Shown here one piece after another: positions 29,814 through 33,760 of a stretch of DNA of 64,000 nt; the stretch's first letter is position 1, and the number at the start of each line of letters is the position of its first letter. Below the pieces are notes generated by a model. The model made no database searches, had not been told where the DNA came from, and was given only the letters and a program-made list of their open reading frames with translations. Position numbers and translations under genes: made by a program. Origin of the DNA: Streptobacillus felis (GTDB lineage: Bacteria > Fusobacteriota > Fusobacteriia > Fusobacteriales > Leptotrichiaceae); the NCBI RefSeq assembly GCF_001559775.1, contig NZ_LOHX01000152.1, positions 1 through 64,000 on the forward strand, written 5' to 3'.

Positions 29814-29846
29814 ATACTAGGCATCAAGTGATGCCTAGTATTTTTG
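29814..29846. terminator. Bidirectional terminator after EF-G2
   Basis: A 12-base stem ATACTAGGCATC / GATGCCTAGTAT, 4-base loop and T-run, shared with the convergent minus-strand gene. Confidence 0.9.
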
Positions 29847-32579
29847 TATAATATTATTTTCTTTATCATAAAAAATATTTTTATTATCTATAATATTATA
29901 TTCTAATTTATTTTTTTCAAAAATAAGTCCATATTTTTCTTTTATTATACTAATCAAGTCTTCAATCTTTAAAGAATTGTAATCTGTAATAATTCTTTCT
30001 ATAATTACGTCAATTATTTTAATAGTATTATCAGAGTTAAACATCATTAAAATATTTTTTGTAGAATGTCTTGAAATTATTTCATCTTTCATTTCTGTTA
30101 AAATTGAAGAATAAAAGTAGTCGGGTAAGTTATCAGCAATATCATAATGATATCCTTTATCTCTTAAATATTTGATAGAAAAAATTTCATCTTTATTTAA
30201 CTTTGATAAAATATGGGAAATATATTCTTTTATTTTTTCTTTTGTAACACCTCTTTTATTTAATTCATTAATATTAATATATTTTCTATATTCATATTCC
30301 ACAATTTCAAAATTTCTTTTTAATTTAGATATCTCAGCATATGTTGCTGTAGTATTAGTAAGTTTTATTTTTGATAAATCAATTAATGGATTATTTTTAA
30401 ATAAGCTTATAATATAATTATGTATATTATTATATTTATTACTAACTACATAACCAACATAGTTTTTAAAATTTAGTTCATTTAAAGTAAAAGGATTAAT
30501 CTTTCCATTTTCTTCATATCCAAAAGTTTCATAAAATATATTTTTTAAATCAGTAGTTGTATAAAAATCTTCTGTTAGTTTTTCTTTTAGAATTTTTAAC
30601 TCATAATTTGATAAAAAATTATAGTCTATTTTCAAGATGTCATTTTCCATAAACATATTTAATTCATGTAAATAGTTTGAAAAAAAAGTTGGTTTCTCAA
30701 TACCGTATATCTTTTCATATTCTAATGCTAAATCATCCTTATGAATGGGTGCAGTTTCAAAAAGTAAATCTAATACTTGTTTTTGTCTACTAGCTTGACC
30801 AAATTCTAATGTAGGCATACGACCATAATTTATGTATTTAGATGGATATATTTTTTTTAGTAGATTATGTAATTCATATTGATCTCTAATATCGTATTTT
30901 TTCATTAGTTCTGGGTAATCTCTAAGGAATTTTAATGTAGATATTTCTACATCTTTATATTGCTCTAAGTTTAAAATATCTAATAATTCAGTATAATCAT
31001 TATTGTCTATGTTATAATATCTGAATTTTCCCATATTCCAAAGTATAAATTTACTATCTGATAATTGATTTATTACTCCACGACCTAAATTTATTATTTT
31101 ACTGGTAATTTTATTTTGAGGTATATGATTTATTACGTCGTTATATAGTTCTGTTAGCGTTTCAAAATCAATTCCATCAGTCGCAAGATTTTTTAATATA
31201 TATACTATTATACTTGTTCTGTCTATTTTGATTTTATCATCACCTAAATTAAAATAATCTCTATAAAAATATATATTTAAATCTTCTTTAATATATTTTG
31301 GGATTTTATTATCACTAAAAGCAAATCTCATTTCTTTTTTTCCTTTAGAATATTTTAAATCTAAATAATTATATGTAATTATACCATTTGTACTTTTAAA
31401 AGTTTCAAATGCTTTACAAGGTATGTTATAGTTTTGGAATAAATATGAATAATTTTCTTCTATGAAATAATCATTATTATAAAATGTATTTATTATTTTG
31501 CTTAATATTTGTCTTACTCTTTCTCTTGTTAGATTTAGTGGTTCTGCAATTGTTTGTAATGTTTTACCATTAATTTTTTCTGTAAAAATTTCTTTTTCCT
31601 TATCATCCAATTCAATCACTTTTTCCAATATTGACTTGTAAGAGTAAAAGTAAGTAATTTCATTTTCTATTTCATTTTCAAAAATATCATTATTTTTTAT
31701 CAATGAGTTAATGATATTATTTAAATAACTAAATTGTAAATAAGAATATCTTTCTGATAGTTTATTTTTTGATAAATATCTATTGATTTTTATACATGTT
31801 TTTATAGACTTATAATACTCATCAAATAGTAAATCTAAAAGTTCAAAATTATTAAATCCATCTATTTCAATTTTATTTTTAATTAAGTTTAGTTTATTTT
31901 TACTGATTGTATAATAAATTTCTTTATATTTGTAGTATAAAGTTTCAGATAAAAAATCAGAGTGAATTATATTCCTATTTTCTATGATAGGTATATATTT
32001 TTCAATTTCTATTAATACATTTTTTTTCATAGTTGGTGATAAATTTGTATTAATAAAATCACTGTAGGTAAAAATTCCAATATTATTTAAATATCTTAAT
32101 TTTGAACTTTTTTTCAAAATATGTTTTAATGATATATCGTATATTTCAACTAGATTATGTTGGAATGTTGTTGCTAATTTAAGACTATTTTCTAAATTAT
32201 TTATTGCAACTTCTATTTCTTTTATTTCATTGTTGTCAAAATTATTGGAATTCTTAAGTTTAGAAAATTCCTCTAAAGTTAATGGATCTATTTTAAATAA
32301 TTTTTTTGAAATTTTTGGATTTAAATTTAATTCTGTTAAAAAAAAGTTTTTAGCATTTTTATAATCTAAAATTTTATTTTGAAGAATATTATTATAAACA
32401 ATTTTTGTTTTCCCATAATTATAGATACATATTTTATCAATATTTTTTAGTTCTTCTAATGCAATATTGATTGAATCTTTATTATATGATTTAAATTCTT
32501 CATAGATTTCCTCAATAAAAAAATGAAAATTATTTTTTTTAATAAAATTTTCTATATCATGTATTAACTGATTAATCAT
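29835..32579 (-). CDS. Large protein with RNAP alpha-CTD-like and sigma region 4-like segments
   Basis: A 914-residue soluble protein. Residues 155-195 (KLRYLNNIGIFTYSDFI) resemble the helix-hairpin-helix RNA polymerase alpha C-terminal domain. Residues 318-362 have the sigma-70 region 4 pattern, with DDKEKEIF, a first helix ending GKTLQTIAEPLNL and the recognition helix TRERVRQIL. The N-terminal 60 residues and stretches near 440-520 and 590-645 look like degenerate winged helices. The rest is helical and rich in Lys, Asn and Ile. No sigma region 2 or enzyme motif is seen. It may be a transcription-associated or DNA-binding regulator. It follows the radical SAM gene after 65 bases that contain an 11-base AT inverted repeat. 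AAGGAG precedes the ATG. Confidence 0.78.
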   Translation of the reverse strand: MINQLIHDIENFIKKNNFHFFIEEIYEEFKSYNKDSINIALEELKNIDKICIYNYGKTKIVYNNILQNKILDYKNAKNFFLTELNLNPKISKKLFKIDPLTLEEFSKLKNSNNFDNNEIKEIEVAINNLENSLKLATTFQHNLVEIYDISLKHILKKSSKLRYLNNIGIFTYSDFINTNLSPTMKKNVLIEIEKYIPIIENRNIIHSDFLSETLYYKYKEIYYTISKNKLNLIKNKIEIDGFNNFELLDLLFDEYYKSIKTCIKINRYLSKNKLSERYSYLQFSYLNNIINSLIKNNDIFENEIENEITYFYSYKSILEKVIELDDKEKEIFTEKINGKTLQTIAEPLNLTRERVRQILSKIINTFYNNDYFIEENYSYLFQNYNIPCKAFETFKSTNGIITYNYLDLKYSKGKKEMRFAFSDNKIPKYIKEDLNIYFYRDYFNLGDDKIKIDRTSIIVYILKNLATDGIDFETLTELYNDVINHIPQNKITSKIINLGRGVINQLSDSKFILWNMGKFRYYNIDNNDYTELLDILNLEQYKDVEISTLKFLRDYPELMKKYDIRDQYELHNLLKKIYPSKYINYGRMPTLEFGQASRQKQVLDLLFETAPIHKDDLALEYEKIYGIEKPTFFSNYLHELNMFMENDILKIDYNFLSNYELKILKEKLTEDFYTTTDLKNIFYETFGYEENGKINPFTLNELNFKNYVGYVVSNKYNNIHNYIISLFKNNPLIDLSKIKLTNTTATYAEISKLKRNFEIVEYEYRKYININELNKRGVTKEKIKEYISHILSKLNKDEIFSIKYLRDKGYHYDIADNLPDYFYSSILTEMKDEIISRHSTKNILMMFNSDNTIKIIDVIIERIITDYNSLKIEDLISIIKEKYGLIFEKNKLEYNIIDNKNIFYDKENNIIQKY

Positions 32580-32603
32580 AAAAAACTCCTTGTATAATAA
32601 AGT

Positions 32604-32637
32604 TATATTATATTTTACATAATCTTAATATAATATA
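32604..32637. repeat. AT-only inverted repeat before the 914-aa gene
   Basis: Perfect 11-base arms TATATTATATT (32604-32614) and AATATAATATA (32627-32637) flank a 12-base loop, between the radical SAM stop and the start of the sigma-4-like gene. It includes a TATAAT on the minus strand, so it may be a promoter with an operator, or a weak terminator. Confidence 0.45.
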
Positions 32638-32644
32638 CTAATTG

Positions 32645-33760
32645 TTATCTGATTATATATTTATTTCTAATTTCAACTAATTTATCTAGATTTCTTCCTA
32701 AAAAATATTTATAACTTTCACAAAACTTATTTATATTATTTTGATCTTTATGTCTTTTACAACCACTTCTACAAATTTTTAAATACTTACAATTTTTACA
32801 ATTTTCATCTAATTTAAATGATTCTTTTACAAAATTTAATGCTTTTTCTGAAAATATAATATCAGGGATACTATCTGTATTTATGTTACCTAATCTTCTT
32901 TCATCAATAACATAGAAATCACATGGATAAACAGAACCGTCAGCTTCAATTACAGTATTTACAGAACAGTGACCAACCATATCACAAGCTTCTGGATTTC
33001 TTCCTGTAAGAATTAATAGTAGATTTTCAAAATATCTAATACTAATAATATTTCCTTTTTCTAAGTCTTCGTTCCATAAATTGAAAATTTCATCTAAAAA
33101 TTTACCATAATTCTCAGCAGTAAGTGTGTAATCTTGTTCATCATAATTTTTTAGAGGGTCAAGAGCAGGTATAAATTGTATAAATTTAAAATTTTGTTCT
33201 TTAAAAAAATTATATATTCTCTTAGCATTTTTAGCAACTTCAAAATTAATTACACACAGTATATTAAAATCTATATTATTTTCTCTTAATTTGTTGATGT
33301 TATTCAATACCGAATCAAAAGTTCCCTTTTGCCTAATATCTATTCTAAAAATATCGTGTATATCTTTAGTACCATCTAGTGAAACACCAATTAAATAGTT
33401 GTATTTTTTGAATAAATCAAACCATCTTTTGTTAAGTAATGTTGCATTAGTTTGTAATGAAAATGTTGTATTTATATTATTTTTATTATATTTCTCAACT
33501 AGTTCGTGTAATTTGTAGAAATAGTTTATTCCTCTCATAGTAGGTTCTCCACCTTGGAATAAAAAGTTTACCTGATATTCTACACAATCATAGACATTTT
33601 TAACTAGATTTTCTAATGTTTCAAAAGTCATATTTCCATAAGTATATGTTTCTCTATTTTCTGCTACATCAAAATAGAAACAATAACTGCATCTTAAATT
33701 ACAGTTACAAGATGCAGGTTTTATTAATAAATTAATACTTCTCAGTTTATTTAATTTCAT
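32645..33760 (-). CDS. Anaerobic sulfatase-maturase-type radical SAM/SPASM enzyme
   Basis: A 371-residue radical SAM enzyme. CNLRCSYC (C20, C24, C27) binds the catalytic 4Fe-4S cluster; FQGGEPTMRG follows. The C-terminal SPASM region has the pattern EADGSVYPCDFY and CKNCKYLKICRSGCKRH for auxiliary clusters. This is the architecture of anSME, which oxidises an active-site Cys or Ser of sulfatases to formylglycine, but no sulfatase gene is nearby, so another peptide substrate is possible. ATG 33760 is chosen because GAGG lies just before it, overlapping an in-frame GTG at 33772. Confidence 0.88.
   Translation of the reverse strand: MKLNKLRSINLLIKPASCNCNLRCSYCFYFDVAENRETYTYGNMTFETLENLVKNVYDCVEYQVNFLFQGGEPTMRGINYFYKLHELVEKYNKNNINTTFSLQTNATLLNKRWFDLFKKYNYLIGVSLDGTKDIHDIFRIDIRQKGTFDSVLNNINKLRENNIDFNILCVINFEVAKNAKRIYNFFKEQNFKFIQFIPALDPLKNYDEQDYTLTAENYGKFLDEIFNLWNEDLEKGNIISIRYFENLLLILTGRNPEACDMVGHCSVNTVIEADGSVYPCDFYVIDERRLGNINTDSIPDIIFSEKALNFVKESFKLDENCKNCKYLKICRSGCKRHKDQNNINKFCESYKYFLGRNLDKLVEIRNKYIIR

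Follow-up and report, generated by a model that had tools for sequence, protein, structure and literature searches.

The window analysed here is a stretch of 64,000 nucleotides of Streptobacillus felis DNA (contig NZ_LOHX01000152.1), and its gene at 29835..32579 on the minus strand, recognised by ORF calling and family matches as whole and intact, encodes a 914-residue protein that, as judged from sequence, is probably the large DNA-binding subunit of a modular anti-invader system, here present as an orphan. It belongs to a widespread and so far uncharacterised family, here called family A; a literature search found neither a description of the family nor an experiment on any of its members, an absence that is no proof.

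The gene and its family

The reading frame considered in the preliminary description is present: it lies on the minus strand, opens with an ATG, runs uninterrupted over 914 residues and has its own ribosome-binding site, AAGGAG (32586..32591, minus strand), visible in the sequence itself 6 nt upstream of the start codon. Its G+C content is 19.2%, with about 25% in the remainder of the window, and is low at the first and second codon positions; since so long an open frame at 19% G+C excludes chance, the ORF is considered genuine.

Family A was defined by a sigma region 4 together with an ELHNLLKK/RMPxxxxG region, with homology across residues 312-910. The window protein matches the family profile, in which it is one of the rows, with E=5.8e-208, and it is joined to the family by plain BLAST-type matches too. 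One alignment-query scan of 84,980 genomes returned 75 loci, mostly in Bacillota (Clostridia and Bacilli) and also in Spirochaetota, Verrucomicrobiota and others; a single-protein scan of the same genome contigs found no relative, and it was the alignment query that succeeded. Among plasmid records, 48 from Enterococcus and 2 from Exiguobacterium matched, and the annotated plasmid members are mostly named 'sigma factor-like helix-turn-helix DNA-binding protein' by NCBI. Besides sigma region 4, the best-conserved signature in the family alignment is DIRDQYELHNLLKK (residues 563-576; 30852..30893, minus strand).

A characterised family over the whole length, named in the preliminary description as grounds for refutation, did not emerge from searches of Pfam, NCBIfam, PADLOC, PDB sequences and PHROGs. 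The PHROGs matches are chiefly sigma-factor models, neither the full sequence nor its sigma-4 stretch alone had a useful match among PDB sequences, and no PADLOC family matches the window protein, nor does any PADLOC model cover A or its partner B (see below). Scans with Pfam and NCBIfam showed no enzyme domain, no sigma region 2 and no RpoA N-terminal domain.

A phage origin of the family was also considered and is unsupported, because phage records contained no family A match, a scan of viral contigs returned only two relatives and the viral fold library searched with Foldseek gave nothing below E=0.001.

Domain architecture

An AlphaFold2 model was computed from a 53-sequence alignment (mean pLDDT 80.6, pTM 0.51). 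In order, it contains a winged helix (residues 2-62), two helical units of low to medium confidence (ca. 85-135 and 150-200), a poorly predicted linker (200-283), sigma region 4 (317-367) and an array that extends to the C-terminus. Family A proteins are predicted to be chains of DNA-binding domains, made of alpha-CTD copies, a sigma region 4 and many winged helices.

Sigma region 4 (residues 317-367; 31479..31631, minus strand) is the sole confident domain of the window protein by sequence, with a Pfam Sigma70_r4 match over residues 324-363 that exceeds the curated cut-off (E=1.4e-6). It is modelled at pLDDT >90 and, in a Foldseek search of the PDB, superimposes on the sigmaA region 4 of chain 7kug_B with an rmsd of 1.5 and a probability of 1.00. 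Sequence, model confidence and fold match thus bear out the helix-turn-helix that had been proposed for residues 318-362, and its predicted fold is indeed that of a sigma region 4; the accompanying claim that sigma region 2 is lacking also holds, as the Pfam and NCBIfam scans found region 4 alone. Sigma70_r4 is found by Pfam in 53/53 family members, a count that is partly ascertained because one of the scan patterns was taken from sigma region 4; the recognition helix TRERxRQ and the alpha-CTDs lay outside the scan patterns. In the window protein this helix reads TRERVRQI (residues 351-358; 31506..31529, minus strand). Residues of this kind in sigma-70 region 4 contact -35 elements, and in window numbering they are kept in almost the entire family (R352 in 51/53, E353 in 51/53, R354 in 52/53, R356 in 51/53 and Q357 in 53/53), the window copy retaining the full set. 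Compared with a true sigma factor, the region 4 helix-turn-helix with its -35-contact recognition helix is there, and region 2, responsible for core binding and -10 recognition, is missing; compared with the RNA polymerase alpha subunit, the N-terminal assembly domain is not matched. Sequence comparison therefore describes a protein that keeps putative -35-reading residues yet has no recognisable core-polymerase part.

The alpha-CTD assigned to residues 155-195 in the preliminary description is a weaker case. Pfam RNA_pol_A_CTD does not match the window protein, although it matches outright the corresponding N-terminal part of 46/53 family members. These relatives carry one to three clear copies, usually two or three, spaced ca. 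90-100 residues apart, and one such segment (from L034) aligns with solved RpoA CTDs in a PDB search. Against a profile of alpha-CTDs taken from the family, residues 145-205 of the window protein reach 10.7 bits, equalled by 1/1000 shuffles, and residues 80-140 reach 5.3 bits, equalled by 15/1000; AlphaFold2 confidence over both segments is only 60-80. Hence, the window protein has two degenerate alpha-CTD-like segments, both weak, one at residues 85-135 (32175..32327, minus strand) and one at residues 150-200 (31980..32132, minus strand), the latter being the segment originally pointed out, for which the weak family-profile signal stands and a Pfam match and a confident model do not. RpoA uses R265, N268, G296, K298, S299 and E302 for UP-element binding; at these positions the family profile has R in 94%, N in 86%, G in 86%, K in 58%, S or T in 85% and E in 90%, and the window copy has not kept this recognisable set. 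The segment pointed out earlier is then best taken as a real yet decayed module, its signal weak but better than chance. In the same way, the idea that two RNA polymerase-derived modules are joined in one protein describes a real trait of the family, of which the alpha-CTD half is decayed in the window copy.

The rest of the protein is built, according to the model, of winged helices. The N-terminal one (residues 2-62; 32394..32576, minus strand) also gives a weak Pfam match to a TBPIP/Hop2-type winged helix over residues 9-60. Residues 368-914 (29838..31478, minus strand) form a predicted tandem array of repeated H-H-H-E-E topology, with pLDDT mostly >85, for which Foldseek finds tandem-winged-helix proteins in the PDB, namely UFL1, RPC62 and SelB (WH2-WH4); most whole-length alignments have a high rmsd and reflect the repeated motif alone. 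The degenerate winged helices suspected earlier agree with these repeats and fold matches, and the 550 residues said to match nothing do lack a family by sequence but have the predicted fold of a winged-helix chain.

Operon partners and gene neighbourhoods

The most frequent layout, observed at 25 loci, is an operon A-B-C on one strand with A first and with genes that mostly overlap or lie a few bases apart. Gene B encodes ca. 405 aa with a predicted ParB/Noc/Spo0J fold (top matches are ParB bound to CDP, probability 1.00) and a conserved DGRIIDGNRRxTCLR motif. Gene C encodes 620 or ca. 857 aa and is an SNF2 helicase with the motifs GSGKT, DEVH and QSKDRIHR, the long form having in addition an N-terminal PLD nuclease domain that matches PbeA. 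In a second layout, at 14 loci, a B-like gene of ca. 575 aa lies upstream of A. The upstream protein that was scanned (L052) begins with a Swt1-type HEPN domain (HEPN_Swt1) containing an R-N-S-V-A-H (RxxxxH) motif; downstream of A, HIRAN proteins were identified at the two loci scanned, L052 and L049. Fusions of a HEPN to a ParB domain had been noted earlier (PMC3710099). A third layout, with 4 loci, places genes for a BrxP/SspD-like PAPS reductase and an SspC-like ATPase after A, joined in 3/4 by DUF4007; these phosphorothioation-type partners were profile-tested in L078. Finally, at 17-18 loci whose flanks extend for 2 kb or more on each side, A has neither B nor C. L015 was left out of this solo count, as its contig ends just downstream, where there is also a transposase-like ORF; L024 and L037 do not count as partnerless either, since their B gene lies masked by antisense ORFs.

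Some individual loci show further features. At the solo locus L058 a neighbouring gene clusters with PbeA-like helicases. On the viral-classed contig L088 (7989-18733), the gene for a family A protein of 1449 aa precedes PAPS reductase-like and SspC-like genes, and two Flavonifractor-type genomes have a second, very divergent A-like gene of ca. 660 aa between A and B (L017:10709-12691 and L018:10703-12694).

Restriction-modification genes of the Sau3AI type (MutH-fold restriction enzyme and C5 methylase) recur beside A-B-C at six loci. Of 100 neighbour proteins scanned, four were C5 methylases and another four MutH-type restriction enzymes, a plain tally rather than a measure of enrichment; sequence clustering maps them to L067, L068, L080 and L081, and L069 and L070 hold further copies.

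These neighbourhoods are the ground on which we infer a defence role. The partners (ParB-fold, SNF2/PLD, HEPN, HIRAN and phosphorothioation proteins) and the restriction-modification neighbours favour A as a defence subunit; hence, among the roles suggested at the outset, i.e. transcription-coupled regulator, anti-phage factor or chromosome-organising protein, the anti-phage factor is the one that best resolves the data.

Relation to known systems

PglW of BREX type 2 is a kinase in which three wHTH modules come after an RNAP alpha-CTD-like domain (PMC12839542). Family A resembles it in having alpha-CTD-like domains before winged helices, and the family's alpha-CTDs match PglW models, but A has a sigma region 4 and lacks a kinase and, by Pfam, a nuclease domain; the match in relatives extends over only ca. 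60 residues, and PglW models give no match to the protein of the window. MzaA of the MZA system is a sigma-factor-like protein (PMC9523054) and shares with A its large size, the association with defence and a sigma-4 recognition helix; however, the match covers ca. 30 residues near the MzaA C-terminus, for the window protein with E=0.063 and 12.1 bits against a cut-off of 800, and no MZA-type partners were recognised in family A operons. Because the PglW and MzaA matches span only 30-60 residues, we file A under no known system.

Other likenesses concern the partners. PbeABCD is a phosphorothioation-based system, including PbeA, with antiviral activity shown experimentally (PMC6459918); the long C is a PLD-helicase whose N-terminal domain strongly matches PbeA, whereas neither A nor B is a Pbe protein and DndCDEA were not recognised in A-B-C loci. 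The PAPS reductase and SspC-like ATPase genes that follow A at four loci recall the SspBCD and BREX type 4 phosphorothioation genes (PMC12839542, PMC10853773), but most A loci are without such genes and A matches no Ssp model. The predicted ParB fold and the DGRIIDGNRRxTCLR motif are reminiscent of ParB/Noc CTPase clamps and of DndB, which are members of the ParB superfamily; this likeness belongs to partner B, a gene absent from the genome of the window. Sigma-type HTHs are also present in BrxL and in some DndH proteins (PMC12839542, PMC10853773).

An orphan gene in a variable slot

The window copy is an orphan: neither B, the ParB-fold gene, nor C, the SNF2 helicase gene, was found in its genome, and the same searches recovered both in the positive control G024. 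Gene A is the sole occupant of a slot that varies with respect to sister species (29815..32654), delimited by DNA similarity breakpoints that lie 2-7 bases past an EF-G-like gene and 10 bases inside a radical-SAM gene. In one sister genome (G001) the slot holds three tandem, similar, secreted-looking genes (L110:4186-5773), which encode 173, 173 and 180 aa with signal-peptide-like starts and a GPRYR motif. In another (G002), a type III-like modification methyltransferase directly follows the EF-G-like gene (L111:4148-6028; DPPYNTG read by eye), which speaks for the defence reading; the contig ends ca. 40 bases after this ORF.

The distribution in the neighbourhood of S. felis is patchy. Among 60 near genomes, only that of the window and four relatives carry family A, corresponding to 5/33 Leptotrichiaceae genomes. 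Among these relatives the module is complete in G024, gene A is interrupted in G008 and G009, and it is short in G016. In a tree the window copy groups within the A-B-C clade at support 86/56, which is too weak for a claim of descent from A-B-C modules.

It should be noted that part of these data counts against a functional protein. That the Streptobacillus copy is a decaying, functionless remnant left after loss of B and C is a serious possibility, if less than an even one: the partners are absent genome-wide by a search whose positive control was found, 3/5 Leptotrichiaceae copies are broken or short, which fits the decay of orphans, and the gene itself is at 19% G+C, with degenerate alpha-CTDs that have lost their contact residues. 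Against it stand the intact 914-codon frame with its good ribosome-binding site and the sigma-4 contact residues, wholly retained. Moreover, solo copies can be maintained, also by purifying selection, as indicated by one pair, L031/L055, with dN 0.17-0.20 and dS 0.44-1.6, and by another, L056/L075, with intact frames in the same place at 44% identity between flanking genes that are 54-81% identical; these selection figures come from other solos, the window copy having no close relative. We lean, with moderate confidence, towards an orphan that is a member of such systems and retains a DNA-binding role tied to defence or silencing. The retained-role and remnant readings overlap in time.

Proposed function

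In the full systems, A would serve for targeting and as a scaffold. Through its sigma-4 and alpha-CTD modules it may recognise promoter-like DNA, i.e. -35 and UP elements, on incoming DNA, such a target being the most economical use for these residues in a protein that has no core-binding part. A could then load or position its ParB-fold partner B, after which an effector would act on the invader, be it the SNF2 translocase C with or without the PLD nuclease, a HEPN RNase or a phosphorothioation unit; the parts of B as clamp and of C or HEPN as effector are suggested by analogy with their families. This mechanism is not simply transferable to the window copy because its genome has no B or C. 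Alone, it might bind foreign DNA sequence-specifically and cover the promoters there, or it might be a recently orphaned remnant.

The family may even constitute a new class of anti-invader systems, in which tandem alpha-CTDs and a sigma region 4, borrowed from RNA polymerase and acting free of it, find promoters on incoming DNA, seed a ParB-fold clamp at them and recruit a helicase-nuclease, while stand-alone copies silence foreign promoters by occupancy; put in this full form, the proposal is speculative and rather doubtful.

Two other functions were weighed. An ordinary transcription factor, or an atypical sigma or anti-sigma protein, for host genes would account for the sigma region 4 with its intact recognition helix and for the alpha-CTD copies of the relatives, but the lack of sigma regions 2 and 3 and of the RpoA N-terminal domain, the patchy distribution and the operon partners typical of defence modules make it improbable. 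Plasmid or chromosome partition or organisation, with A binding the centromere, B as the ParB clamp and C as remodeller, is the least credible reading, since to the ParB/Noc fold of B and the modules on Enterococcus plasmids are opposed full modules on megabase chromosomal contigs (L016, L028 and G024), recurrent neighbours in which an unsystematic look recognised no ParA-like partner, and partners that include genes for PLD nuclease, HEPN, HIRAN and phosphorothioation next to restriction-modification.

The anti-invader subunit thus being the preferred reading, the window copy is by itself a modest find, as it is an orphan. If the reading is true, the analysis names a widespread, unlabelled family of defence-linked DNA-binding subunits together with a three-gene A-B-C module, and it would give a reason for the recurrence of RNA polymerase fragments in defence proteins, such as the alpha-CTD of PglW and the sigma-type HTH of BrxL, DndH and MzaA, namely that they may read promoter-like DNA.
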